A stretch of DNA of 64,000 nucleotides from Nitrospirota bacterium (GCA_014859105.1 JACUUX010000001.1:107315-171314), one strand, 5' to 3'. Shown: positions 24,196 through 56,190, numbered from the stretch's first letter. Notes: generated by a model from the sequence alone, not told the origin. Program-made: numbers and translations.

Positions 24196-25023
24196 TTAAT
24201 ATTGATATAGTATCGACAGCTTTGCTCTTTCGGAAGGATTTGCTGTATCTTGCGCATCAACCTCAATTGTGTAGAGATACGGCACAGGGACCACAGATGA
24301 TCCCGGTACAGGTGGGAATCCCGGATCAACCAGCCCCTCGTCCTCACCTGTATTGCCCCAAACTGTATCAACTATCTTTGCATAAGCCGTATATGTTGGA
24401 CTTACACCGAGATTCAGACTCATGTCATATGTGGAAGGGGTTCCATGGGTAATAGTAAGAGAACTATCACAGCCTGTCCAACAGGCTGTTGGCAGATTGA
24501 GCTTGGTAGCCAGATCTGTATAATTGCCAATAGTGATACATGGTGTACCATCTGGAAGAGTAGCAGCTACATTAGTCTGGCATGTTGCAGGTGTTGTAAT
24601 TAAAGGACCGAGGGACGATAAGTCACCCAAAAGGTTATTAACTTTAGATTGCTCTCCCCGCATTCCAATAAACTGATATATGACATCTGCACCGCCTATA
24701 CCAGCCTCAAGTGCTGTTTTATATCTCTTCTCCATGCCCGATATTTGTGTACCGGTCGTTAGCATGTAAATCAACCCTGCCATGATAGCCAGGGCAATAG
24801 CCGATAATATCAGTACCATCACAAGGGCTATGCCTTGGTCAGTAGACAGTAGACGGTAGGTAGTAGACAGGGAATTCTTTTTTTTAGTAGACAGTAGAGA
24901 GTAGACAGTAGACAGGAATCCATTTGTCTTTCCCTGTCTACTATATGCTGTTTGCTGTCTACTTCCTTTGCTGTTTGCTACATGCTGTCTACTTTCCTGT
25001 TTGTATACTTCTGATAAGTCCAT
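24196..25023 (-). CDS. PilX-type minor pilin (operon copy A)
   Basis: 275 residues as listed. The core begins GIALVMVLILSAIALAIMAGLIYMLTTGTQISGMEKRYKTALEAG, a PilX N-terminal helix highly like copy B at 35966. The roughly 65 residues before it (QQTAYSRQGKTNGFLSTVYSLLSTKKKNSLSTTYRLLSTDQG) are encoded by tandem 'tagacagtag' repeats and by the end of a decayed S23 gene, so the start is uncertain and the native start may have been lost. In copy B PilW and PilX are 4 bases apart; here they are separated by inserted material. Confidence 0.8.
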   Translation of the reverse strand: MDLSEVYKQESRQHVANSKGSRQQTAYSRQGKTNGFLSTVYSLLSTKKKNSLSTTYRLLSTDQGIALVMVLILSAIALAIMAGLIYMLTTGTQISGMEKRYKTALEAGIGGADVIYQFIGMRGEQSKVNNLLGDLSSLGPLITTPATCQTNVAATLPDGTPCITIGNYTDLATKLNLPTACWTGCDSSLTITHGTPSTYDMSLNLGVSPTYTAYAKIVDTVWGNTGEDEGLVDPGFPPVPGSSVVPVPYLYTIEVDAQDTANPSERAKLSILYQY

Positions 25024-25301
25024 AAAGCATCCTCCCGGCTTCTTCAGTCAGACATGTTAAATCCTTATTGTCTTTTGAATATCCAAGATCTACGGATAGA
25101 ATAAGATAATACCTCAATTCTTCCAAAGAACTCTGACTGATGTTGTAAAAAGGGGAAATCTCTTGTAATTCTATATGTATCTAATACAAGTTTATGCGCC
25201 TTCTTCCAGACTTCTAAATCCTCAAATCTCTTAACCTTTTTATTCATTTTTCTTCCGCCTGTCTCCTGTCTACTATCTACTGTTTGCTGTCTACTTTTTT
25301 C
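24839..25301. repeat. Repeat-bounded insertion carrying an S23 fragment
   Basis: Compared with copy B, where the PilW stop and PilX start nearly touch, about 460 bases are inserted here. Both ends consist of short repeats related to GTAGACAGTAGACAG, and between them is a four-helix-bundle gene fragment. The insertion begins exactly after PilW NNLR and ends just before PilX GIALV. Confidence 0.75.
24989..25247 (-). pseudogene. Decayed four-helix-bundle (S23/bAvd-type) gene
   Basis: Starts MNKKVKRFEDLEVWKKAHKL, the S23 family opening, but shifts frame after ITRDFP; the family ending continues in another frame as SLEELRYYLILSVDLGY...EEAGRMLYGLIRSI. The middle (about 30 residues normally carrying IPANI-EG) is missing, and the span is 259 bases, not a multiple of three. 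So there was an internal deletion with frameshift. It is also fused in frame to the end of PilW. Confidence 0.85.
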
Positions 25302-26576
25302 TCTCAGATTATTCGGTTTCACAACCAGTGTATACACTTTCCATCTGTAATTTTGCCAGTTAGTTATTCCATTGAGTTTAAAATCTCGCCCTAAAACTGT
25401 CTCTCCGGTACAACTACCGCCCGGTAAATCCGCTGAAAGTTCCCCAACTCTGATAGAACCGGAGGCTACAGGAGGATTAAAGGTAAAATCTCTATCAAAT
25501 TGTCCCTCCTGTGCTAGTATGTATACTCTCACCGCTCTCACACGATCCCGTATATTTTTGGCATCCACTGTAGCTAAAACATCTTCAAGGTCATTTACAT
25601 AACAATTCACTGCGCCATCTGTATCAATATCAATACCATACACTATCTGCATGTCGGCGACACAGTCGAGGAGGGGTAAGATATCCCTCCTTGATCCATC
25701 AGCATGAGCTATAACAGCCTTTCTAAGAACACCTGTGTTAGGGGCACATCTGTCAGGCACATCATCTTGAGCCGGATCGATGTGTGACCTCCAGATATAA
25801 TAATCTGCCCTGTTAAAAGGCATTCGAGGAGGGTTATCATCAGCAGGATTGTTAATGCCATATATAAAACGGGTCTCCGTATCATCTGCAAAACCGTCGG
25901 TAGCATTATATGTTGTATGAAAACCTCCACCGCTGACAACTAAGGATCGCCGGTTTGCATCTGAGGTTCCTGGTGAGAGAACAATCACACGATCGCCATT
26001 AACAAAATTCTCATTTGCAATATCCCAGATCCTTTTCACATCGCCCGTACTCAAGTGTGTCCATCTCCGGGCTGGAGCATTTCTTGCGACATTCGTAGCT
26101 TTTATCACCAGATAATCGGAGTCATTGAAAACAGCATTCGGCCAACCAAAAGTAACGTTATTCCCGCTTATAATTGCCCTCGGTGGGTTATTTGGAGCAT
26201 CGTTGTATACTGCTGCTTCAGCAGCCGATGCCTCCTCATAATTTATGCCTGCAGGAATCACCCATGACAGCCCATATCCTGCATGCTCAATATCTCGTCT
26301 CAATATCTCAAGCCCAATTATGCCTTCTATATCAGTCTCTGCTATCTTGCTTTGCTGTTTGAATTGTGTTAGCAAACCTGTAAATACCTGAGAAGCAGCA
26401 GCCATAACAAGCACAAAGACAACCATTGTTACCATGAGTTCTATTAGGGTAAACCCCGTTTGATTCATGATGCATAATGCACGATACGACCCGATACATG
26501 ATCCACGATTCACGATACATGATAAATACCTGCATCCTGTATCCTGCATCTTGTATCCTTGCCTCTTCGTGCCCAT
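25065..26576 (-). CDS. PilW-type minor pilin, C-terminally extended by insertion (copy A)
   Basis: 503 residues as listed. The prepilin motif is MNQTG-FTLIELMVTMVVFVLVMAAAS, so the real start may be the ATG of MNQTG; the 35 residues before it (MQDTGCRYLSCIVNRGS...) come from a dispersed repeat. The body ends naturally at VVKPNNLR, as in copy B, but the stop is replaced by a repeat and translation runs 78 residues more into the S23 fragment. About 420 residues are native. Function: low-abundance pilin at the type IV pilus tip or priming complex. Confidence 0.82.
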   Translation of the reverse strand: MGTKRQGYKMQDTGCRYLSCIVNRGSCIGSYRALCIMNQTGFTLIELMVTMVVFVLVMAAASQVFTGLLTQFKQQSKIAETDIEGIIGLEILRRDIEHAGYGLSWVIPAGINYEEASAAEAAVYNDAPNNPPRAIISGNNVTFGWPNAVFNDSDYLVIKATNVARNAPARRWTHLSTGDVKRIWDIANENFVNGDRVIVLSPGTSDANRRSLVVSGGGFHTTYNATDGFADDTETRFIYGINNPADDNPPRMPFNRADYYIWRSHIDPAQDDVPDRCAPNTGVLRKAVIAHADGSRRDILPLLDCVADMQIVYGIDIDTDGAVNCYVNDLEDVLATVDAKNIRDRVRAVRVYILAQEGQFDRDFTFNPPVASGSIRVGELSADLPGGSCTGETVLGRDFKLNGITNWQNYRWKVYTLVVKPNNLREKSRQQTVDSRQETGGRKMNKKVKRFEDLEVWKKAHKLVLDTYRITRDFPFLQHQSEFFGRIEVLSYSIRRSWIFKRQ

Positions 26577-27169
26577 TATCTCCTCACAATTGTTGAAATA
26601 GTATGGGTATATGGGTCACCATTAGCCACAGTCTTTTCCTTCCATTCCCATGTAATTTGTATCTCAACCAGTTTGTTATCGTCATTCAAATCATCAATTC
26701 TTTTCATGGATGTAAAAGGAAAATTATTAATATTTCTCACATCCCTTTGAATCGTTGTATCGGCTACAAAATTCCCGGGATTGTTTGGCGCACCATTTGT
26801 ATCTGTCAATAATATATCGTCAAATGAGACATTCCTGTGAGCTGACATTCTCTCATCAGCAATGCTAACCGCCTCATCTCTCAAAATATTTATCATGTTT
26901 GAGTCAATACCTACGAGTGCGGTCTGCATCAGGGCAAGGAAGACCACAAGGGTTACCACAAGGGCAATCAAAACTTCAACAAGGGTGAAGCCTCCGGAAA
27001 ATGGACATAGAAAATTGTCATTGCGAGTGAAACGAAGCAATCTCGCGTTTTTGAAACGAGATTGCCACGCACCCTTCGGGTGCTCGCAATGACAGATAAG
27101 GTTGCTCGTTTGATTGTCTATGTCTATTTTTCGGAAACCTTTTTTATTTAGCAACACAATTATCTGCAT
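26576..27169 (-). CDS. PilV-type minor pilin with element in its leader (copy A)
   Basis: ATG 27169 gives MQIIVLLNKKG, aligned with MKRIALLNKKG of copy B. Then 48 inserted residues (ending FLCPFSG) precede GFTLVEVLIALVVTLVVFLALMQTALVGIDSNMINILRDEA, almost identical to copy B. The insertion is a 144-base element plus 3-base duplication, so the frame is kept and the G-F cleavage site with Glu at +5 survives. The leader would grow from about 11 to about 60 residues. Whether prepilin peptidase still processes it is open. Confidence 0.85.
   Translation of the reverse strand: MQIIVLLNKKGFRKIDIDNQTSNLICHCEHPKGAWQSRFKNARLLRFTRNDNFLCPFSGGFTLVEVLIALVVTLVVFLALMQTALVGIDSNMINILRDEAVSIADERMSAHRNVSFDDILLTDTNGAPNNPGNFVADTTIQRDVRNINNFPFTSMKRIDDLNDDNKLVEIQITWEWKEKTVANGDPYTHTISTIVRR
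26994..27137. mobile_element. 144-bp MITE-like element in a prepilin leader
   Basis: Terminal inverted repeats CCGGAAAATGGACATAG / CTATTTTTCGGAAA (with one or two mismatches), flanked by a 3-base direct repeat CCT (26991-26993 and 27138-27140). The core holds a palindrome of the dispersed 'attgcgag...ctcgcaat' type. Its length is 48 codons and it has no stop in the pilV frame. Confidence 0.8.
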
Positions 27170-27695
27170 TACATGTTCCTCCATCCGTAATCTTTGTTGT
27201 CAATTTCCCGAGATTTATTCTCGATGCTGAAATCACAATACAGTCATAATCTGCGTCAGCATCGGTGTTACTACATATAGTTTTATTATCATTTGAAAGC
27301 CCCCCTGTAGTAAAACTTATCTCAATGTCCGCTATATTACTCCACGTTATAGGATGATTCGGATTCAGGTCTTTTTGCAGTAAAGGGATTGGGTCGTTGT
27401 ATCCAGCAGGACGGACATTATCTGCTGCGGTTAAATTTCCATCGCCATCAGGCCAGGGGGCGATATCCTCCTGTATTGTATATTGTGTATTCGCAATAGT
27501 AACAAAATGCGCCCTGTTTCTCTGCATTGCCCTTGCCCTTGCATTCATCAGATCAACATACATCTCTTTTATCTCACTTTCAGCCCTGTATTTACCTATC
27601 CAGCCCTGAAACGAAAAACCGAGGGCCACAGCGAGAATGCCAATTATAGAGATAACGATTATAAGTTCGATTAAAGTTATGCCCCTGTTGTTCAT
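27144..27695 (-). CDS. FimT/GspH-type pseudopilin (copy A)
   Basis: 183 residues. Clean prepilin start MNNRG-ITLIELIIVISIIGILAVALGFSFQGWIGKYRAESEIKEMYVDLMNARARAMQRNRAHFVTI, with Glu at +5. The remainder is the GspH-type beta domain ending ISASRINLGKLTTKITDGGTCNADNCVAK, very similar to copy B. Its 3' end overlaps pilV by about 26 bases. Minor pseudopilin, likely part of the pilus-priming complex with PilV/W/X and PilY1. Confidence 0.9.
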   Translation of the reverse strand: MNNRGITLIELIIVISIIGILAVALGFSFQGWIGKYRAESEIKEMYVDLMNARARAMQRNRAHFVTIANTQYTIQEDIAPWPDGDGNLTAADNVRPAGYNDPIPLLQKDLNPNHPITWSNIADIEISFTTGGLSNDNKTICSNTDADADYDCIVISASRINLGKLTTKITDGGTCNADNCVAK

Positions 27696-27743
27696 AATAA
27701 ATTTAAAATTTAAAAGTCAAAATGTAAAATTACAATTAAAAAT

Positions 27744-28133
27744 TCAAAATGTTTTGTTCTTTAAAGTTAAAATGCTTGAAGCAAGTATATTCGATAATTC
27801 TTTTGCCTCATTTAGCAAAGGATTTATTTCATTCTCTGGTTTTTTCCCAGAATCTTTTAATAGTGACAACCAAAACTTAGTTTCATTGGCAGATTTTAGG
27901 GCATGATTCAGAAAATTCTTAAAATCCTTTCTCGAACTTGCTGCCTGTGCTTCAACAATATTTGCTCCGATACTTGTGGCACTTCTAAGTAATTGGTCTC
28001 CTATTATCATATTGGCCCTGCAATTAGACAATGTGTCAATAAGTTTTATTGTGCTTAAAGCAAAGCTATATGCCCTTCCTTTTATATTTAATTTTGCGTT
28101 TTGCTCTGTATTTTTAAATTTCTCATTTTGCAT
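27744..28133 (-). CDS. Four-helix bundle protein (S23/bAvd family)
   Basis: 129 residues. YSFALSTIKLIDTLSNCRANMIIGDQLLRSATSIGANIVEAQAASSRKDFKNFLNHALKSANETKFWLSLL is the full family core, including the conserved GANI-EA. These proteins are known from 23S rRNA intervening sequences and as Avd in diversity-generating retroelements; the free-standing copies have no assigned role. It lies between PilY1 and FimT, where copy B has only 4 bases, so it is an insertion. The first residues (MQNEKFKNTEQNAKL) look repeat-derived. Confidence 0.9.
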   Translation of the reverse strand: MQNEKFKNTEQNAKLNIKGRAYSFALSTIKLIDTLSNCRANMIIGDQLLRSATSIGANIVEAQAASSRKDFKNFLNHALKSANETKFWLSLLKDSGKKPENEINPLLNEAKELSNILASSILTLKNKTF

Positions 28134-28146
28134 TTTGAATTTCTTT

Positions 28147-31100
28147 TCACCTTTCCCTCATATGTATTGTCCTTTTCACAGGCGGCGGTGGTAACAGGGT
28201 AGCCGGGGTCCCTCCTGTAATTCCTTCGATTTCCATATCCATAGGCGGCTTTCTGCCTCCACGCTTTGTAAAGGCTTTTGAAAGGTCTATCTGCTCGATT
28301 GCAGCTGTTGAGACCTGAAGTATTGCTATTCCTTTCAGGGTACTGCCGGGAGAACCACCTGTATCATATTTCACCGCCCACATGGTACTTCTGCCTCCAA
28401 TTGCACATACATCGGTGTAGGGTCTTATTGTTGTAAAAAATACAACACCCATGGTTGTTGCCTCCGGGTCTGTAATAACACGCTCTGCCCCGAAATCTGT
28501 CTCGGAAGGGTCGAGATCGATATACCATCCGTCCTTATTGTCTGGGACGGGGGCATTTATGCAATCAAGAGCGTCTGTAGGACAGGTTTTATCGACCAGA
28601 TCAGCAAGAGCAACTGCTATGCCGCTGCCGGCGGTACACTCATTTTTAAGTGGTACATCTCCGGTCTGAAAACAGGGCTCTTTTATGCCAAAAATCCGTC
28701 TCCTGCTGCTGTGGTCATCTACGCCGGATTCCTGCACGAAGTAATATCTGCCTGTGCCAAAGTAGAGCCACAATAAGCCCTTCTTTTTGTTCTGAATCCT
28801 GGCAACACCAGATGTAACAGGGCCAATGTTGTCTATAACTATACTCCATTTCCAGTCGGAAGGATTAGGGTCCTCTCCTGTCACCAGTCTGCCAACACCA
28901 CCGTTTGTCCATGTATATGGATTTGCTGGAGTTCCCGCTCCTGCCCTCTTTACATAGGGAATATAAAGAACATCGGTCTCATAGTCTCCAGACCCGCCGC
29001 TTATTAAATCAGAATCATTCTGAGAATTCATCATTGAGCCAGCAAAGGCAAACTGGATTCCTGAATCTATAATCCTCTCGGGATTACCGGTCTTTAGATT
29101 GAGGACAAAGAGCCGCAGATTCTGGTCTGAACGGCCCATAAACTGCCAGTCTGTGCTTATCGGACCTGTTGGACCAGAACCGAAAACAACGAACCAGTTG
29201 CCGTTTTTAGCCTTATCTCCTATTCGAACAATAGCAGGGCCTGTTGTTGTAAAGCCGAGCCGGGGATGAGAAAACTCCCAGAGGAGCTCGGGGTTGTTCG
29301 GGTCTGTAACATCGAAGGCGAAGTAGGAAGAAAATCCAACACCATCAACTGGTGTTTTTACACAGTCTGTACAGGAAGCATTATAATTTCTGCACGCACC
29401 GCCAAACCTCATTCCCCCTATAAGGATGGTTCTCCAGCTACTCACCGTCCTCTCATCATCAGGGGTTCCCTCAATGCTTGCATCAATAAGATACGGTGTA
29501 AGATCAACAGTATAGATATGACAGTAGCCTGGGTCTGCGATGTATTTAAGATAAGGCAGGGCATTCCTGGGAATAAATGCCCATGCCTCATGTCCGATAG
29601 GTGTAGATAGGTCAGGATTTGTTAGCTTTGCCTTCTTGGTTACAGAATCCTTCCATGCACCGCTGAGCTGTAATTTCCCGAGCTTGAAGGCATGAAGCAT
29701 ACCATCGTTTCCGCCTGTAAAGACCATCCCCCTGTTTTTATAGGTTAATGAGCTTATAAAATCTTTATATGTTGTATCACTGTATCGAGTGTCATAATTG
29801 TTCAGCTGCAGCCATGAGGCAATCCTTGGTGTTGAACTCAGTATATCGCCTAACTTCCACACATTCGTCTCATCTCCAATTGTTACAGTCCTTAATCTAT
29901 AGTCGTTTACACCGTCGCCGTCAGCATCCTCAATTAGATCCTCACCATGAACCCATCCTATAATCTTTGATGCATGAGTCCCATCTGTTGCCTGAAGATA
30001 AGAAGCAAGAGTTCCGGCATTGGTTATTGAAAAGGATATGAGTGAACTGCCATCAACTGTTGTATAGATGGTTCTCGGATCTGCAGAAAGATCCCTGCTC
30101 CACAGGAGTTTGCCTGCCTCCCAGAGGTTGCTTATGTCTTCAAACTGTACGGCCGGCATTACAATGTCTGCATCGCCATCACCATCAGTATCATGCCATC
30201 GCTTTGCTTTTGTAGTCTGCGTATCGGTGTCAAAGTAAATCTGCATAATATAGTCATTTGTGAGGTTGAGTAAGCTGTCTGTTACTGTTTCTTCCCTTAT
30301 ACTGCTTTTTGCAAAGAAGGGGTCAACATGGTACCAAAGGTTCTGGAGCGCTCCTGTCCATGTAATTATCTCATCGCCGAACCTGCGTCTCGGATAAAAA
30401 ACAGCCTGGACAAGATTGGCACCCTGGCCCTCACCTGATGCAAGAACAGACGCCGCTGTGCCGGAAGATGCCCGCGATAGTATGCTTGAAAAGGCATCTT
30501 CGATCGCCTTCTCAAGCCTGTAACCTTCTGTAGCCTCAAAAAAATTGTCAGGCTCGCCGTTACCACTCTTATCCCATTCTGCCTTAAGATCAGGGATATT
30601 ATTGCCATTTAAATCTTCAAATCCCCCATTTATGGCAGCATATCTAAGTAAAGTGGACCCCTTACCAAAGGCAAATACAGTATAAAGGACTAATTTCTGC
30701 TTGCCCGGGATAGCAGGCCTGAGGTCTGTTGTATTCATATATAAGGCAACATCTTCGATACCTGCAACATAACATCCACTTACTATCCCACCGCATGAGG
30801 CAGACTCGCCTCCCCCGGTGCAGGAAGGAAATGTTGATGCAGGGAATGGACCTACTGCAGGGCAACCTGTGCCTGAACAGTTATATCCAGATTTCCCTGA
30901 AGCATAATCCCTTAAGGTGGCGGGCAGATAGCCATCAGCACAGGGTTCACCGTCTGTTATATAAAGAACAAAATTTTTTGAACACCAGGGCCATCGGGGT
31001 GATCCGCCAGTTCCATAGTTAAGAGGGTCAACATCGTTATTTATCTGATAATCACCACCTTTATACATTGGGCCGGGCCCACCTTCCATGGTTGCCTGCT

Positions 31101-33572: not shown

Positions 33573-34081
33573 CTAACCCTTTTAAGTTATAAATTTTGCA
33601 TATTAATCCTCAAAGATCTTAAAAGTTGTTTAAGTTTTTCAATTCTGTCATTCTGGCTTGTCGGGAATCTTTCTTTGAACAACCCCCTAATCCCCTTTAC
33701 TAAGGGGGATTCAGAAAGATTCCCGACAAGCGGGAATGACATACAACCATTGGAACAGAGTTTGCTGTGTATAATCGGGCTAATTCAATTGTATACATAA
33801 TACTACATTGTAGTTTACTTTTGTCAAGAGGGCCTCTGACGACAACTCTATTCAAAGATATTGTAGTTTGTCAAGCAATCAGGACGGTGTTGTTACGGAA
33901 ATATCATTTGTGTACTATTGGGAAAAATCATAATTGCACATGTTAAGCAGGCCACTTGTTTCTTAGATGGAAAAGTGACACAATAAATAGGAAGAACCTT
34001 ACCTAACAATATGTGCACAAATAGTTTCCCATATGTGCAAGTATGATATTTACGTACTATCAATTGTAGCTGTTAAGGTTT
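33573..34081. other. Gene-free stretch with repeats
   Basis: About 510 bases. The first part is a full copy of the 'start-codon' repeat (33601-33769), which encloses a C/G-rich palindrome and a GATTCCCGACAAGCGGGAAT palindrome. The rest (33770-34081) is AT-rich with no ORF or RNA that I can recognise. Confidence 0.6.
33601..33769 (+). repeat. Dispersed 'start-codon' repeat, full copy
   Basis: Left end TTAATCCTCAAAGATCTTAA and right end CATTGGAACAGAGTTTGCTG are shared with copies at 50401-50563 and 60291-60455. Here the right end has mutated and no gene follows. The interior differs between copies and carries smaller palindromes. Confidence 0.8.
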
Positions 34082-35965: not shown

Positions 35966-36634
35966 TTAATACTGATACAGTATTGACAGCTTTGCCCTTT
36001 CGGATGGATTTACGTCCCTCTGTGCGTCAATTTCTATTGTATAGAGATACGGCCGATGCACTACAGTCACCTCGCCCGACCCGGAGACAACAACTCCTTT
36101 ACCCAGCAAACCTTCATCTCCACCGGAATTGCCTTCTACGGTGTCAACTATTTTGGAAAATACTCTATAAGTTGGACTTGCTCCTATATCAAAAAACATG
36201 TCATGAGAATCAGGGCCTGTAGTCATTAAATTATCACATCCAACTCCCCAGTCAATAGTAGATCTAAGTAATTTGTCATTGATACACGCCTGGCTAATAG
36301 CAATATTAAAGGTATTGAGAAAGCTGAATTCATTTTCGATCTGAGTGGGATCATCCATTCTTGCTGCGATAACTTGATAGATAATATCTGCACCACCTTT
36401 ACCGGCTTCAAGGGATGTTGCATATCTTTTCTGGAGACCTGAAATCTGAGTCCCGGACGTAATCATGTATATCAATCCTGCCATGATTGCAAGTGCAATA
36501 AACGAAAGCACGAGGACCATCGCAAGAGCAATACCTTTTTCGTTAATCCCCCATCGTCCTCTTAGCAAGGTGAGGCGAAAGGGGAGTAATGTTTCCTTTG
36601 CTCCCACTTCTTTACTCTTTGCTCTTTGCTTCAT
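35966..36634 (-). CDS. PilX-type minor pilin (copy B)
   Basis: 222 residues. GIALAMVLVLSFIALAIMAGLIYMITSGTQISGLQKRYATSLEAGKGGADIIYQ is the PilX N-terminal helix, matching copy A. Before it, ETLLPFRLTLLRGRWGINEKG again comes from a repeat with CATCGTCCTCTTAGC-type sequence, lengthening the leader. The C-terminus (VHRPYLYTIEIDAQRDVNPSERAKLSILYQY) is near-identical to copy A. Lies 4 bases after PilW. Confidence 0.88.
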   Translation of the reverse strand: MKQRAKSKEVGAKETLLPFRLTLLRGRWGINEKGIALAMVLVLSFIALAIMAGLIYMITSGTQISGLQKRYATSLEAGKGGADIIYQVIAARMDDPTQIENEFSFLNTFNIAISQACINDKLLRSTIDWGVGCDNLMTTGPDSHDMFFDIGASPTYRVFSKIVDTVEGNSGGDEGLLGKGVVVSGSGEVTVVHRPYLYTIEIDAQRDVNPSERAKLSILYQY

Positions 36635-36638
36635 CTGA

Positions 36639-37823
36639 TCACCTCAGATTATTTGGTTTTACGACTAATGTATATAGTTTCCATCTGTAATATTTATACT
36701 CAGGATCCCCGATCTCAGTTTTAAGGTTTACAAAATCAATAGTTCTTGAATTAGGGCCTAAACTCTCTGTAGCAGATAAATATTCCTTCGAACCACCTAA
36801 TGAAAAATCATAATTAATATCCTTTTGCCCTTCCTGAGCTACTATATATACTCTGACTTCTCTTACCTGCTCCCTTATCTGTTGAGCTGTAAAATCGAAG
36901 ATACTATCTGAAGGCGGCCAATCAATGTTACCGTCTCCATCTGTGTCAAGCCAGAAGGTTACCTGAATATCAGCAACACAGTCGAGAAGGGGAAGTTCAT
37001 CAAGCCCGCCATCATCATGTCTCACCGTAGCTTTGTAAAGTATGCCGGTATTGGGAGCGCATCCCTGCGGCATGGCATCAGGAATCCTGATATAATAATC
37101 TGCCCTGTTGAATGGCATCCTCAACGACGGAACATCGGACCCTGCAACACCATAAACTAGGTGGGTCTCGGCTACACCTGTCGGTGGCCAGGGCGATGAT
37201 ATAATGTTATTATAACTTGTTGAAAAAGATTCTCCGCTGACAACCATCGCCCTTTGATTTCCTGCTCCCCCGGTCTGGAGGACTATTACATTGTCATTAG
37301 GGTTTAGATTTTCGGTTCCGGGTGTCCATTGTCTCGGGTTATATTCATCAGAGAATGACGGGTTGGCCTTCAGCGGGGTCCATTTTTTAGATGTAGAGTC
37401 CCTTGAAACATTAATCGCCTTGATGGCAAGTACATCTGACCCGTACAGCGAAGATCCGTTTCCGCTCCGTATCCCCGCCGGAGGATTAGAGGCTCCGGCG
37501 GAATCGGCGTCTCTGGCCGGGTTATCGGGGGGGCCGTCGTTAAAGTCACTGTCCGCCCATGAAGTTTCAGATATGTTAGCAGCTTCCTGATAGGAAGCTC
37601 CATTCAAGTTCCACGGCAAACCATATCCTGCATGCTCAATGTCCTGCCTCAAAATTTCAAGGCCAACTATACCTTCGATGTTAGTTTCTGCTATCCTGCT
37701 CTGCTGTTTAAACTGTGTTAAAAGCCCTGTAAAGACACCGGAGGCAGCAGCTATGATAAGAACAAAGACTACCATTGTTATCATGAGTTCTACTAAAGTA
37801 AATCCTGCTTCTCGTTTAATCAT
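36639..37823 (-). CDS. PilW-type minor pilin (copy B)
   Basis: 394 residues, apparently unmodified. Prepilin motif MIKREAG-FTLVELMITMVVFVLIIAAASGVFTGLLTQFKQQSRIAETNIEGIVGLEILRQDIEHAGYGLPW with positively charged leader and Glu at +5. It ends VVKPNNLR-stop, which defines the native end for copy A. Contains a DTDGDGNIDW segment that may bind calcium. Overlaps PilV by 4 bases. Confidence 0.9.
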   Translation of the reverse strand: MIKREAGFTLVELMITMVVFVLIIAAASGVFTGLLTQFKQQSRIAETNIEGIVGLEILRQDIEHAGYGLPWNLNGASYQEAANISETSWADSDFNDGPPDNPARDADSAGASNPPAGIRSGNGSSLYGSDVLAIKAINVSRDSTSKKWTPLKANPSFSDEYNPRQWTPGTENLNPNDNVIVLQTGGAGNQRAMVVSGESFSTSYNNIISSPWPPTGVAETHLVYGVAGSDVPSLRMPFNRADYYIRIPDAMPQGCAPNTGILYKATVRHDDGGLDELPLLDCVADIQVTFWLDTDGDGNIDWPPSDSIFDFTAQQIREQVREVRVYIVAQEGQKDINYDFSLGGSKEYLSATESLGPNSRTIDFVNLKTEIGDPEYKYYRWKLYTLVVKPNNLR

Positions 37824-38236: not shown

Positions 38237-38810
38237 ACGCTCCCCCGTCCGGAATTTTAGCTGCTAATGTGCCTAAATTTATTCTCGTCGCCGATACGAT
38301 AATACAGTCGTAATCTGTATCAGGGTTGCTGTTACAGCAAAGCGTTTTTGTACCATCGAGATCGGAGAGCCCTGCTTTCGTAAAATTTATCTGGGGATCT
38401 CCCAAATCACTCCAGCTAAGAGCATAATCAGGATTAAGGTCCCTCTGGAGTATCAACGTATCTAAAGCTGATTCAAAATTCTCATTTCCATCGGGTGCTG
38501 GATTTGTGTCCTCATAGATTATATATTGTGTATTTGCAAGAGTAACAAAGTGCATCCGGTTTCGCTGCATCGCTCTTGCTTTTGAATTCATCAGGTCAAT
38601 ATACATTTCTTTGATCTGGCTTTCCACCCTGTACTTCCTTATCCAGTCTCTGAACTCAAACCCAAGTGCGACAACAAGAATGCCGATTATGGAAATAACA
38701 ACTATTAGTTCTACTAGAGTTATGCCAGATGATCCACGAAGCAGGATATATGATTCATGATGCATAATTGTCGTTTTTTTATCCTGTATCCTGTATCCTG
38801 TATCCTGCAT
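38208..38810 (-). CDS. FimT/GspH-type pseudopilin (copy B), repeat in leader
   Basis: 200 residues as listed. G-ITLVELIVVISIIGILVVALGFEFRDWIRKYRVESQIKEMYIDLMNSKARAMQRNRMHFVTL is the pseudopilin core with Glu at +5. The leader before it (MQDTGYRIQDKKTTIMHHESYILLRGSSG) is encoded by 'gtatcctgtatcctg' repeats and related sequence, unlike the short MNNRG of copy A; the start could be the internal ATG of MHHESY. PilY1-B ends 4 bases upstream. Confidence 0.88.
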   Translation of the reverse strand: MQDTGYRIQDKKTTIMHHESYILLRGSSGITLVELIVVISIIGILVVALGFEFRDWIRKYRVESQIKEMYIDLMNSKARAMQRNRMHFVTLANTQYIIYEDTNPAPDGNENFESALDTLILQRDLNPDYALSWSDLGDPQINFTKAGLSDLDGTKTLCCNSNPDTDYDCIIVSATRINLGTLAAKIPDGGACDEENCIVK

Positions 38811-38814
38811 CCTG
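38765..38814. repeat. Short tandem repeat between PilY1-B and FimT-B
   Basis: Repeated TATCCTGTATCCTG units, translated on the minus strand as MQDTGYRIQD at the FimT-B start. Similar material occurs at 26460-26560 before PilW-A and at 55654-55680 after gyrB. Confidence 0.8.
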
Positions 38815-41800
38815 CTACCTTTCCCTCATATGAATTACTCTTTTCACAGGCGGAGGTGTTGACAGGAGAGATAATCCTTGCGCAGTGGGAGGAACACCTT
38901 CAAGTGCCGAGGTTTTTCTTCCACCTGCTTGTGTAAATGCGCTTGAAAGATCTACTTGTTCAATACTTCCTGTTGAGACCTGGAGTAAAGCAATACCCTT
39001 TAATAATGCGCCGGGGGGTCCTCCTGTCGTATATCTGACCGCCCATATAAAGCTTTTTCCGCCGATACCGCACACATCATTATAGGGCTTGTATGTCGTA
39101 AAAAATACGAGGCCCGTTGTAGCTGCCAACGGATCTGTAATAACCCTTTCGGCACGATAGGCTTTTGTTGAGGATTTGGTGCAGGTGCCATCAGCATTTA
39201 CCTCGTCGCAATAAGTATAATTATCCGTAGCGTCAAGATTAATAAACCACCCTTTGAAACTTGATGAATTTGCATCATTTTCTGAAGGAATATTGCTTAC
39301 TGATGTAACATCGGTTAGACCGGTAGTGCCACTTGCTGTGCTCTGACATTCACCTGCCTGATCAGGATCTATAATATTTGTTCCGGTAAAACACGGCTCT
39401 TTTATGCCGAAAAGTCCTCTCTGTCCGTCGGGGTCATCAGTTACAGATCCTATCTCATAGAAGTACCTTCCGGTGCCAAAGTACAGCCATAATATATGTC
39501 TTTTATTGCTCTGGAGTTTAGCGACTGCTGATGTAACCGGTCCGGTATTGTCCCTTAAAACCCTCCAGACCCAGTTTGAAGTATTATCGTTTTCTTTTGT
39601 AAATATCCTGCCGATACCCCCTTCTGTCCATGAAATGTTTGAACCCGACCCTGTTCTTTTGACATAACCGACGTAAATAGCATCATCTTGGTAATCTAAG
39701 TCACTGTCTGTCGTTACATTTAACATCGACCCTGCAAAGGCATACTGAATTCCTGTATCTATTGTCCTTAAAAGAGCGCCGGTCTTCAGATCAAGCACAA
39801 AGAACCTGAGATTCTGGTCAGAGCGGCCCAGAAACTGTTGGTGGGTGGTGTTTATAGGGCCCGTAGGGCCAGAACCGAAGACTACAAACCACTTGCCATT
39901 TTTTGTTTTATCCTGCCCAATTCTCACAATCGCAGGGCCCGTCGTGGTAAAGCCGAGTTGTGGATGAGAAAACTCCCAGAGAAGCTGGGGGTTGTTCTGG
40001 TCGGTAATGTCGAGTGCAAAATATGAAGAATACCCTACGCTACTGCCATCCACTTCAGCAGGAGCACAGACACTGTCAGGTGTGGCGGTAGAGCAATTCA
40101 CATTCATTGGCTTGCAGGCTCCGCCGGTTCTCATCCCTCCTATAAGTATTGTCTTCCAGCTCATGACATCTTTGTCGCATTCTGAATAATCACTTGCACA
40201 ACCGCTCGGACTGTTGATGCTGGCATCGAAAATATACGGACTGAGGTCAACGGTATATACATGACAGTATTCGGGGTCCAGCAAATATTTGAGATAAGGC
40301 AGGGAATTCTTTGGAAGGAAGGCCCACATTTCATGCCCGATGGGCATTGACGAACCGCCGAGGTATCCTGCGGGATTCGACAAACATGCCTCATCATGGT
40401 TGCCGAAGGTACAATTTTCCGGTTTGGTCTTAAGCTCCAGTTTTCCAAGTTTGAAGGCATGGAGCATACCGTCATTGCCGCCTGCGAATATCATGCCTCT
40501 TTCCTTATATCCATCAGGTCCGGTAGTCTCAAGGAAAGCCTTATAGGTCAGATCATTGTGGACACTATCATAATTGTTTAATGGTATCCATGAGGTAATT
40601 CGGGGGGTTGAATTGAGAATATCGCCTAATTTCCACACATTTGTTTCAGAAACGAATGTCCCGTATCTTGGCCGGTAATCATCTATACCGTCGCCGTCTC
40701 TGTCTACGCCTTCAATTATAATTACGGGATTCCCGTCTTCATCAAAATCTTTCAGGGTTGTAAGCGCTTCTCCATGTATATAACGGATTATGTCTTCAGC
40801 CTCGATATCATTAGCTGCCTGTAGATATGGTATTAATGTGGTTTTATTTTCTGTCGAAAAACCTCCTGATAAAAAATTACTTCCGTCGATTGTAGTATAA
40901 ATCGTCCTCGGCTGCACTGATATATCTCTGCTCCATAATTCCTTGCCTGCTTTCCAGAGAGTCAATACATTTTCAAAGATAAGATTAGGTTCGATTCTAT
41001 TGTCTGCATCTCCGTCGCCATCGGTATCCGCGAAGCGCCTTGCCATGGTTCTCTGCAAATCCTGATCAAAATAGAGTTGTACAATATGGTCATTTGTTAA
41101 ATTAAGCATTCGGTCGGCAACCGTATCTTCCCTTATACTGCTGCTTGAAAAAAACGGGTCAACATAATACCAGAAATTATGGTTCTCGCCTATCCAGTTT
41201 ACAATATAATTGCCGATGATGCGTCTCGGATAAAACACTGCCTGAACGAGGTTTGCTCCACTTCCCTCACCGGATGCGAGCACTGATGCTGCGGTGCCTG
41301 AAGCCGCGCGCTTGATTATTGTTGAAAATGCCTCTTCGACTGCCCTCTCAATCTCATAGCCGTCAGTGGCCTCAAAATAATTATCGGGTATAATGTTGCC
41401 GTCTTTATCCTTTCTATCATACGCTGCCCATTCTGACTGATCATTAGGGGTATTGCTCTCATCCATGTCTTCGAATCCACCGTTAATGCTTGCATACTTG
41501 AGAAGGGTTGAGCCTTTTCCGAAAGCAAATACAGTAAAAAGGGTCAATTTTTGCTTGTCTTCGATATCAGACCTGAGATCTGTCGTATGCATATATAAAG
41601 CTATATCTTCGATGCCTGCTACATAGCAGCCGCTTACTATTCCACCGCATGAAGCAGACTCACCTCCCCCGGTGCAGGAAGGAAATGTTGATGCAGGGAA
41701 TGGACCTACAGCAGGGCAACCTGTGCCTGAACAGTTATATTCAGATTTCCCTGAAGCATAATCCCTTAAGGTAGCAGGCAGATAGCCATCAGCACAGGGT

Positions 41801-45784: not shown

Positions 45785-45890
45785 TTCCGTCATTCCGACT
45801 TGTTCGGAATCCTTTTTTCGAGCATAACAAAAGAATCTAAGAGGGGATGTGTTTCAGAAAGATTCCCGACAAGCGGGAATGACACTTTGT
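45785..45890. repeat. Palindromic repeat between yjbQ and lpxK
   Basis: CGTCATTCCGACTTGTTCGGAATCC at one end and GATTCCCGACAAGCGGGAATGACA at the other form inverted arms. The same arm sequence is found inside the start-codon repeats at 33648-33740 and 50453-50534. Confidence 0.8.
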
Positions 45891-45949
45891 ACAAACTTAA
45901 ACTTTTATAAGCTGTAACCCTTATGTTCATTTGTATTGATTAATCATGG

Positions 45950-50345: not shown

Positions 50346-50563
50346 AAAGATCTTTAAAAACTTTTAAGATCTTTTATTTCTGTCATTAGAGTTCGCTATG
50401 CTATTAATCATCAAAGATCTTAAAAGTTGTTTAAGTTTTATAATTCTGTTATTCTGGCTCTTGTCCCTGCTTGTCAGGGATCAGTCCAGAATCTGTCTTT
50501 CTTTTAAGAAGGATTCCCGACAAGCGGGAATGACATACAACCATTGGAACAGAGTTCGCTATG
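50346..50563 (+). repeat. Start-codon repeats before dnaA (short plus full copy)
   Basis: A short copy (50346-50400) runs AAAGATCTTTAAAAAC to AGAGTTCGCTATG. A full copy (50401-50563) runs ATTAATCATCAAAGATCTTA through a palindrome to CATTGGAACAGAGTTCGCT and ATG. The dnaA start codon is the last three bases of the repeat, so dnaA lacks a native ribosome site; GGAACAGAG from the repeat is the nearest. Confidence 0.8.
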
Positions 50564-51892
50564 AATGTAGAAGAAATATGGCTTAAAAGTCTTTCTAAGA
50601 TAGAAGACAGGGTTGGTAGTAATATAATAGACCTCTGGTTCAGGCCTATTAAAATATTACAGATAAAAGAACGACAGATTACAATCGAAATACCTAACAG
50701 GTTTTTTAAGGATTGGATTGAGGACAACTATCCTGACATAATAGCCGACACAACAGGAGATATTCTTGGTTTTCCTGTAACTGTTCGTTACAGAATCGAG
50801 GAGAAAATTGACCCTGCCGTGAAGAAAATGGATATGCGATTAGAAAACCGGAGGCAAAAACTCGCGAGCAGGGGAATATACCTTAACCCTAAATATACAT
50901 TTGGAAGTTTTGTTATCGGGCCTTCAAACCAGTTCGCACATGCAGCGGCACGGGCTGTTGCTGAAGCCCCGGGCAGAACATACAATCCTTTATTCATATA
51001 TGGTGGCGTAGGCCTGGGTAAGACACATCTGATTACTGCTATAGGAAATGCTGTAATTGATAAGAGATCCGACATGAACATAATCTATGTTTCCGCTGAA
51101 CAATTCACAAATGAAGTGGTATCTGCCATAAGGCATGAAAAAATGAGCGAGGTAAAGGAGAAATACAGGAATGTTGATCTCCTTTTGCTTGACGACATAC
51201 ATTTCATTGCAAACAAAACACAGACGCAGGAAGAGTTTTTTCATACATTTAACGCAATTTATGAGAGACAAAAACAGATAGTCATTTCAAGTGACAGGCC
51301 CCCAAAAGAGATAGGTGCAGTTACAGACAGGCTGAAGTCAAGATTTAGCATGGGTCTCATTGCTGATATTCAACTCCCGGAACTTGAGACAAAAGTTGCT
51401 ATATTACTCAAAAAGGCTGAAATGGAGAAAATTACAATACCCGAGGATGTTGCTTATTATTTAGCTTCAAAAGTTAAATCAAATATTCGCGAACTTGAAG
51501 GCTGTCTTATTCGTTTAGGTGCACAGTCATCTCTCACAGGAATGCCCATAAATCGGGAAATGGCGAAAAATATCCTGCAGGATGTCCTGGAAGACGATGA
51601 AAAACCGGTTACTACTGATCATATCCAGAAAATAGTCTGTGAGCATTTTGCCATCAAACTGTCTGATATAAAGGCAAAGAAGAGGACAAAGGAGATCGCC
51701 TTACCACGACAGATAGCAATGTATTTATGCAGGCAGACGACAAATCTGTCTCTGAATGACATAGGAAAAAATTTCGGGGGTAAAGACCATGCAACTGTTA
51801 TATATGCCTGCAAGCAGGTGGAAGAAAAAAAGTCAAAAGAGGAAGAATTTAACAGAATGGTTGAGAATCTTTTACGTAAGGTAAAAATATAA
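50561..51892 (+). CDS. dnaA: Chromosomal replication initiator DnaA
   Basis: 443 residues. Domain I at 1-85 (VEEIWLKSLSKIEDRVGSNIIDLWFRPIK), AAA+ with FIYGGVGLGKTHLITAIGN and VDLLLLDDIHFIANKTQ, domain IV with GKNFGGKDHATVIYACKQVEEKK, the DnaA-box reader. Binds oriC with ATP to start replication. Start ATG is supplied by the repeat; translation matches family length from there. Confidence 0.97.
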   Translation: MNVEEIWLKSLSKIEDRVGSNIIDLWFRPIKILQIKERQITIEIPNRFFKDWIEDNYPDIIADTTGDILGFPVTVRYRIEEKIDPAVKKMDMRLENRRQKLASRGIYLNPKYTFGSFVIGPSNQFAHAAARAVAEAPGRTYNPLFIYGGVGLGKTHLITAIGNAVIDKRSDMNIIYVSAEQFTNEVVSAIRHEKMSEVKEKYRNVDLLLLDDIHFIANKTQTQEEFFHTFNAIYERQKQIVISSDRPPKEIGAVTDRLKSRFSMGLIADIQLPELETKVAILLKKAEMEKITIPEDVAYYLASKVKSNIRELEGCLIRLGAQSSLTGMPINREMAKNILQDVLEDDEKPVTTDHIQKIVCEHFAIKLSDIKAKKRTKEIALPRQIAMYLCRQTTNLSLNDIGKNFGGKDHATVIYACKQVEEKKSKEEEFNRMVENLLRKVKI

Positions 51893-53249: not shown

Positions 53250-55652
<2,403 letters not shown>

Positions 55653-55653
55653 G

Positions 55654-56190
55654 ATGCAAGATTCACGATGCAGGATGCAGGACCAAACCCTCCCGTCTCC
55701 CTTTAATAAAGGGAGGCAGGGTGGGATTATTAAAAATCATTCATCATGTATCTTGCATCAGGCATCATATGCATTTATACCCTTTGTGGTGAGCCTTTTA
55801 GTTTTTATCCTTATCTCATGCGGGAAAAAAGAGGTAAAGCCTGTTTCGGCGGAGTCGAAGCTAGCACAGGAGGCGTTCGAACTTGCAGAGACACTCAGGA
55901 TTGCCTATCTTGAAAATGACCTTAGAAAGCTTGAAAAAAACTCTACAAAGGACGGCTATATAGAACTTATCGGGGCGATTAAGAATTTTGACGGTGCTGA
56001 GCTAACCTTTACTTCTACATGGCTTGAGATAGAGGAGTCGACAGTTTATCTTACGGTTTCCTGGAAAGGTGCATGGAAGGCAGGAGGGAGAATCTCAGAG
56101 GAAAGAGGTGTTGCAATCTTTGAATTCGAAGGGAAGCCTTTGAAGCTCTCCAAAGTTCACAGAGCAAACCCATTCATACAGCCCGAATAA
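55654..56190 (+). CDS. Lipoprotein with repeat-derived leader
   Basis: The track start (55582) lies inside gyrB; the next ATG at 55654 gives MQDSRCRMQDQTLPSPFNKGRQGG..., all repeat-encoded. Then FVVSLLVFILISCGKKE, a signal peptide with lipobox LISC. The GTG at 55786 or 55789 could be the real start. The mature part (about 120 residues: LAQEAFELAETLRIAYLENDLRKLEKNSTKDGYIELIG, WLEIEESTVYLTVSWKGAWKAGG) is unrecognised and looks like a beta-sandwich. Confidence 0.7.
   Translation: MQDSRCRMQDQTLPSPFNKGRQGGIIKNHSSCILHQASYAFIPFVVSLLVFILISCGKKEVKPVSAESKLAQEAFELAETLRIAYLENDLRKLEKNSTKDGYIELIGAIKNFDGAELTFTSTWLEIEESTVYLTVSWKGAWKAGGRISEERGVAIFEFEGKPLKLSKVHRANPFIQPE
55686..55727. repeat. C/G-rich palindrome in the lipoprotein leader
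   Basis: AACCCTCCCGTCTCCCTTTAA with GGGAGGCAGGGTGGGATT; read in frame as TLPSPFNKGRQGG. Confidence 0.8.

Follow-up and report, generated by a model that had tools for sequence, protein, structure and literature searches.

The window analysed here, a 64,000-nucleotide stretch of DNA from a Nitrospirota bacterium (GCA_014859105.1 JACUUX010000001.1:107315-171314), contains a pilin operon (operon A) that holds two genes of the S23 family, one intact and one broken. The family first came to notice through insertions in ribosomal RNA. Each of the two genes is probably the coding core of one copy of a small insertion element, in which an S23 open reading frame (ORF) occupies the loop of a foldback. 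The foldback is formed by two inverted, degenerate arrays of 6-8 nt units (usually 7 nt, with about 4-5 units per arm), and this anatomy spans many phyla. Tight junctions of co-directional genes are the insertion sites; the element shares the orientation of its neighbors, and its 5' arm runs from the upstream stop codon. Hairpins of the same construction that have no S23 gene occur almost only in S23-carrying genomes and sometimes match the S23 arms of the genome in which they are found.

Two S23 elements in pilin operon A

In profile searches the intact gene matched PF05635 (E = 1e-24; 87.1 bits against a cut-off of 33.8) and TIGR02436 (E = 5e-28; 97.5 bits against a cut-off of 24), which confirms the S23 gene that an earlier note on this DNA had recognized. 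The second gene, described there as decayed, matches the family in pieces only. Its N-terminal piece corresponds to TIGR02436 positions 1-26 and its C-terminal piece (window 25001-25153) to positions 56-109, in different frames. Since the match stops at profile position 26 and resumes at 56, the central helix has been lost. Viral contigs searched with the S23 protein of the window gave no match.

Both genes lie between inverted arrays (Table 1). Short repeats had been reported earlier around the decayed gene; these are present as the AGTAGAC-type arms of element 2, which are 88% complementary over 32 nt and spaced 346 nt apart, but the intact gene is armed as well, with inverted, degenerate heptamers of the AAAATTC type that are 77% complementary over 30 nt.

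The corresponding junctions were compared in a relative, G003, which has a pilY1 with 60% identity and an operon that ends, as in the window, next to a convergent feoB-like gene. The pilY1-fimT junction of G003 reads AGATGATGAAC, a stop/start overlap with no element, and the pilW-pilX junction reads TATATGAAAC (short form AATCTGAGGTCTATATGAAAC), where the genes overlap and again no element is present. The window reads AGG TGA (element) TTATT ATGAAC at the site of element 1. Because both junctions are empty in G003, both S23 elements are insertions, given a parsimonious reading of G003. The pilY1-fimT junction is also without an element in G002, G020, and G024. Occupied and empty orthologous sites, as expected of a transposable element, are therefore both found.

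The earlier note had likewise taken the S23 genes for later insertions, using a second pilin operon of the window (operon B, or copy B) with 4-base gaps at both positions as the reference. The conclusion holds through G003, but copy B is ruled out as an empty site: short-period repeats without S23 occupy both corresponding junctions, where they read as leader-peptide codons of fimT and pilX, and the 4-base gaps are distances between ORF ends only.

Anatomy and insertion sites across genomes

The genome from which the window was taken (G000, 3.16 Mb) has seven matches to TIGR02436. Six of the seven are enclosed by inverted short-period arrays whose unit differs from gene to gene (AGTAGAC, AAAATTC, GTCCTAT, GTGCAA, an 8-mer, and CGTTAC); the seventh belongs to another subfamily. 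The left arm of each element was scored against reverse-complemented right arms, both its own partner and those of other elements. Across 35 loci from this genome and its relatives, own arms gave a mean score of 20.2, compared to 10.4 for mismatched pairs, a pairing reached in 0 of 20000 permutations. At 75 loci from many phyla, including Bacteroidota, Geobacter, Clostridia, Planctomycetes, Omnitrophota, and Patescibacteria, the scores were 18.8 and 10.1, respectively, and the highest of 20000 permuted means was 11.6.

Periodic sequence was detected in 213 of 292 flanks (73%) adjacent to S23 at 146 loci, compared to 18 of 281 (6%) at a distance of 500-700 bp. The period was most often 7 (127 flanks), followed by 14 (41), 8 (33), 6 (5), and 9 (5), and the median arm length was 4.7 heptamer units. 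Units of an arm vary at some phases more than at others (sum of squares 7558 vs 7124, sd 99). The S23 ORF lies inside a long inverted-repeat stem, as it does in the intervening sequences (IVSs) of 23S rRNA. Comparing S23 flanks and seeking empty sites in related genomes, as the earlier note had proposed, yielded both common array bounds and empty sites. The idea that free-standing S23 genes move with short repeats is supported far more widely than by the window alone, but the sequence on which it was based, tagacagtag, is one of very many arm sequences, and the shared trait is the architecture of inverted arrays with a period of 7-8. Long hairpins at two loci (L189, L143) were considered as hidden S23 genes and rejected, as these are paired hairpins around ordinary genes.

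Both neighbors were co-directional with S23 in 96 instances and both opposed in 5 (p = 7e-23). Relative to the stop codon of the co-directional ORF upstream, the 5' arm started at a median of -1 nt (quartiles -8/+5, n = 110). Because neither 7 nor 8 is divisible by three, one stop triplet in each unit will pass through every frame along an array. On the sense strand, 50% of 5' arms had a stop in every frame, a modest excess over column-permuted units (mean 37%, maximum 43%). Stop-rich, frame-cycling 5' arms may be the reason why an insertion at the end of a gene is tolerated.

In G032, a member of another family, the pilY1-fimT junction is likewise occupied by an S23 element, which has AGCTATC arms and a visibly different S23 protein. 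Since the arms differ and a member of that family, G020, is empty there, the pattern points to independent insertion at a favored junction. S23 genes occupying one place in distant genomes without repeats would, according to the earlier note, indicate long-term residence. This pattern was not found; G032 shares the junction but brings its own arms. Pilin leaders seem to be a favored landing place. A second minor-pilin operon of G032 (L143, 12680-14509) has several genes that open with AAAGTTA heptamer arrays as leader peptides. In G030 an S23 remnant was observed in or beside a CRISPR-like array (L262), and a CRISPR-DR7 repeat is located on the contig of L001 (L001 start).

Evidence for mobility of the elements

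Two genomes of one genus, G054 and G063, have S23 elements that are 94% identical over 438 bp, including the arms, in unrelated flanking DNA. The site occupied in G063 (C69) is a 57 bp spacer with no element in the sister genome G045. The G054 version of this site retains both arms in expanded form, which enclose no more of S23 than its first codons, together with another repeat. At the site occupied in G054 (C32), the upstream gene of G063 and G045 simply comes to its end, with no element following. A pair of copies in G030 share a near-identical S23 gene but have arms that differ at several positions. The arms therefore belong to the element but vary more than its gene. Separately, L017 (G026) and L213 (G140), from different families, have an S23 element that is 97% identical at the same locus, with 86% identity in the upstream flank, which suggests recombination or transfer of the element.

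Hairpins without S23

A detector of inverted 6-8 nt arrays was applied to sampled DNA. Ten S23-carrying genomes yielded 16 hairpins without S23 in 700 kb, whereas 798 kb from nine relatives that lack S23 yielded none (binomial p = 5e-6); shuffled sequences gave 0. Heptamer motifs, each searched as three successive repeats, were then scanned across the phylum in 118 genomes, 59 of which carry S23. AGTGANN was found in 25 genomes (23 with S23), CAGTANN in 16 (15 with S23), and ATGACNN in 10, all 10 with S23, while a period-10 control motif was found in 0 of 118. Restricted to genomes at least 90% complete, AGTGANN or CAGTANN occurred in 19 of 44 genomes with S23 and 0 of 36 without (p = 1.2e-6, a statistic that ignores phylogeny). 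Copies without a gene are confined to genomes with the cognate gene, as for REPINs, and the only exceptions are two incomplete genomes.

Sampled hairpins matched the S23 arms of their own genome best in 6 of 6 cases in G032 and 3 of 6 in G030; those of G000, taken as a set, matched the arms of their own genome no better than those of other genomes. In G054, sequences matching the arms of its element were found at dozens of additional positions (117 matches in all). G054 also contains many copies of a composite in which two short-period arrays are joined, [GGTGAATC]n - GGGAAAGAATG - [CCACAGAGG]n (L346-L350).

Evidence against mobility and alternative explanations

Several observations weigh against S23 genes being the cores of a mobile element. 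Mobility was read from the comparison of sites among genomes, and no transposition was observed. Target-site duplication was not evident, with at most one shared base at pilY1-fimT and none found by eye at the other sites read. The whole fold of element 1, with its AT-rich arms, is barely better than that of shuffled sequences (z = -1.5), and L036 and several loci of the many-phyla set have S23 without clear arms. Some S23-carrying genomes had no hairpin in the sampled DNA, and the two incomplete genomes mentioned above (G081 and G097; 70% and 78% complete, respectively) have heptamer arrays with no S23 found. Of five S23-less arrays tested from G000, none matches an S23 arm that the genome now has; some of the dispersed copies in G054 consist of a single-arm array instead of a hairpin; and the Fisher tests ignore phylogeny. 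Y1 transposases are present in 31 of 32 relatives with S23 compared to 2 of 9 without, a co-occurrence that makes general mobile-element load a confounder.

Heptanucleotide repeats are known from cyanobacteria, where they are called STRR. Further heptamer arrays have been published as regulatory repeats with no link to S23, TAACTGA in Beggiatoaceae (PMC4679880) and the GGACCGG and MTYCTGA elements in Geobacter (PMC2700814); no S23 or four-helix text was found in the former paper and no four-helix text in the latter. Compared by description only, these repeats are similar to the hairpins reported here in being dispersed 7-mer arrays, mostly intergenic, whose origin is unexplained. The hairpins could then be ordinary intergenic repeats of this kind, made by slippage or serving regulation, with S23 a host gene or passenger that lands or survives there. 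The single-armed arrays of G054 would fit this explanation, which we nevertheless consider unlikely, as the two arms of an element match each other and accompany closely related S23 genes to new sites, no such hairpins were detected in 798 kb of the relatives lacking S23, and the flanks of another mobile gene, Y1, seldom contain arrays (3 of 22 and 6 of 22, compared to 28 of 32 and 25 of 32 for S23).

REPIN/RAYT (TnpA-REP; PMC3116915) systems are small foldback repeats tied to a Y1 transposase gene. Like them, the elements described here comprise many small, gene-less intergenic foldbacks, which may depend on a gene flanked by arms that match the foldbacks in some genomes; unlike them, the protein is a four-helix bundle instead of a Y1 transposase, and the arms have no fixed sequence. 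The distribution of Y1 genes and the foldback form of REPINs would agree with hairpins that are substrates of RAYT/Y1 transposases and carry S23 as cargo. This is improbable, since the Y1 genes of these genomes have ends of their own and few array flanks, and no Y1 was detected in G003, where an S23 element has array arms. The elements are not RAYT, as the gene flanked by the repeat is S23 and not a Y1 transposase. The Y1/RAYT-like genes, of 220-330 aa (L295-L314; e.g., L297, L303, L311, L313), have fixed ends of two kinds, AGGGACACATCCCAT..ATGGGATGTGTCCCT or GGGGTCAG..TGACCCC, and apparently represent distinct element families in this order.

Avd (bAvd), the accessory protein of diversity-generating retroelements (DGRs), and S23 are related four-helix bundles with pentameric relatives. 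That S23 is an accessory protein of this type, with the element copied in trans by a reverse transcriptase, is very improbable: the variation of arms at particular unit phases would fit, but an RVT_1 domain was found in just 12 of 41 relatives and in none of the S23-rich genomes G011 (9 S23 matches), G016, G032, G025, and G026, so that a reverse transcriptase is not required, and no DGR was found beside S23 genes, template and variable repeats not having been searched for.

Relation to 23S rRNA intervening sequences and proposed mechanism

In our reading, the element is related to the 23S rRNA IVS but free-standing, and it behaves like REPIN/RAYT. In the IVSs of Leptospira and Coxiella, too, a long inverted-repeat stem carries an S23-family ORF in its loop. 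The Coxiella IVS has been proposed to be a mobile or selfish element, and its stem is cut by RNase III (PMC4990558). In contrast to IVSs, the elements described here are inserted in protein-coding operons and not in rRNA, their arms are short-period tandem arrays that differ for each element, and copies without the gene are dispersed in the genome. An association with 23S IVSs, which the earlier note had suggested looking for, was absent: Rfam searches of 20 S23 loci gave no rRNA and only two tRNAs and one CRISPR repeat, exact matches to seven 23S motifs were found at none of 146 loci, and no rRNA was found in window 22000-44000.

The S23 protein would be translated from the transcript of the host operon. 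By analogy with the Coxiella IVS, this transcript may fold into a long stem that RNase III could cleave. S23 may hold or bind the repeat hairpin or its RNA or DNA, and could be required in cis and in trans for the copying or upkeep of hairpins, as RAYT is for REPINs.

Short-period repeats, mostly heptamers, have been read as regulatory or left unexplained in several bacterial groups, and free-standing S23 genes are widespread with no assigned function. The two are now tied together, and the result offers a candidate owner, protein, and unit for a long-unexplained class of bacterial repeats. It also suggests a general insertion element of which the 23S rRNA IVS represents one branch. More tentatively, S23 might mark a large, previously unrecognized class of bacterial transposable elements without a known transposase, integrase, nuclease, or reverse transcriptase, whose ends, inverted arrays of about five 7-mers, are recognized through their shape or periodicity and not their sequence, and which could be the source of orphan heptamer repeats in several phyla. 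How ends that match each other without a fixed sequence are recognized and renewed is the question that this raises. A literature search found no paper joining S23 and short-period arrays, although most subscription journals were outside the search and a prior description is possible.

Features of the window and additional observations

Table 1. Coordinates of operon A, its S23 elements, and S23-less repeats in the window
Feature	Position	Strand	Remarks
Pilin operon A	~32365 to 24196	-	pilY1, fimT, pilV, pilW, pilX
Element 1 (intact)	27696..28147	-	S23 between inverted AT-rich heptamer arrays; pilY1 stop / fimT start; empty site in G003 (L236)
Intact S23 ORF	27744..28133	-	PF05635/TIGR02436; 129 aa
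Element 1, 5' arm	28086..28146	-	AAATTCAAAATGCAAAATG... on minus strand (L004)
Element 1, 3' arm	27697..27751	-	inverted partner
Element 2 (decayed)	24930..25298	-	S23 remnant between inverted AGTAGAC arrays; pilW/pilX junction; empty site in G003 (L255)
S23 pseudogene	25001..25247	-	about 29 central profile positions gone; frame shifted
Element 2, 5' arm	25258..25298	-	pilW reading runs through arm into S23 remnant (ORF 25065-26576)
Element 2, 3' arm	24930..24996	-	
S23-less GGATACA hairpin	38722..38822	-	operon B, pilY1-fimT junction; RNA fold z -3.5
S23-less AGCAAAG array / weak hairpin	36556..36640	-	operon B, pilW-pilX junction; RNA fold z -0.7
S23-less AGTAGAC hairpin	24838..24966	-	adjoins element 2; RNA fold z -5.5; provides N-terminal codons of pilX
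S23-less GATACA-type hairpin	26484..26564	-	pilW leader of operon A; RNA fold z -6.5
S23-less GATGCA/GATTCAC hairpin	55645..55767	.	at another place of the window; strand not assigned

The pilV-pilW junction of copy B has no GATACA-type hairpin like that of operon A. The pilV leader codons of operon A are made by a foldback repeat, CATTGCGAGTGAAACGAAGCAATCTCGCG / GAGATTGCCACGCACCCTTCGGGTGCTCGCAATGAC (window 27010-27105).

In the S23 alignment (A1), E44 is invariant and Q30, S37, N41, and E67 are nearly so; these residues lie mostly on one face of helix 2. Among solved structures, the S23 relatives 2GSC and 2RLD each contain five chains, and PDB entry 9wwc_B, which is named 'Tail protein', has a weak S23-like stretch at residues 506-586 (E = 4e-4). 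The window also contains three copies of a dispersed repeat, TTCAGAAAGATTCCCGACAAGCGGGAATGACA, at 33710-33772, 45853-45915, and 50504-50566.

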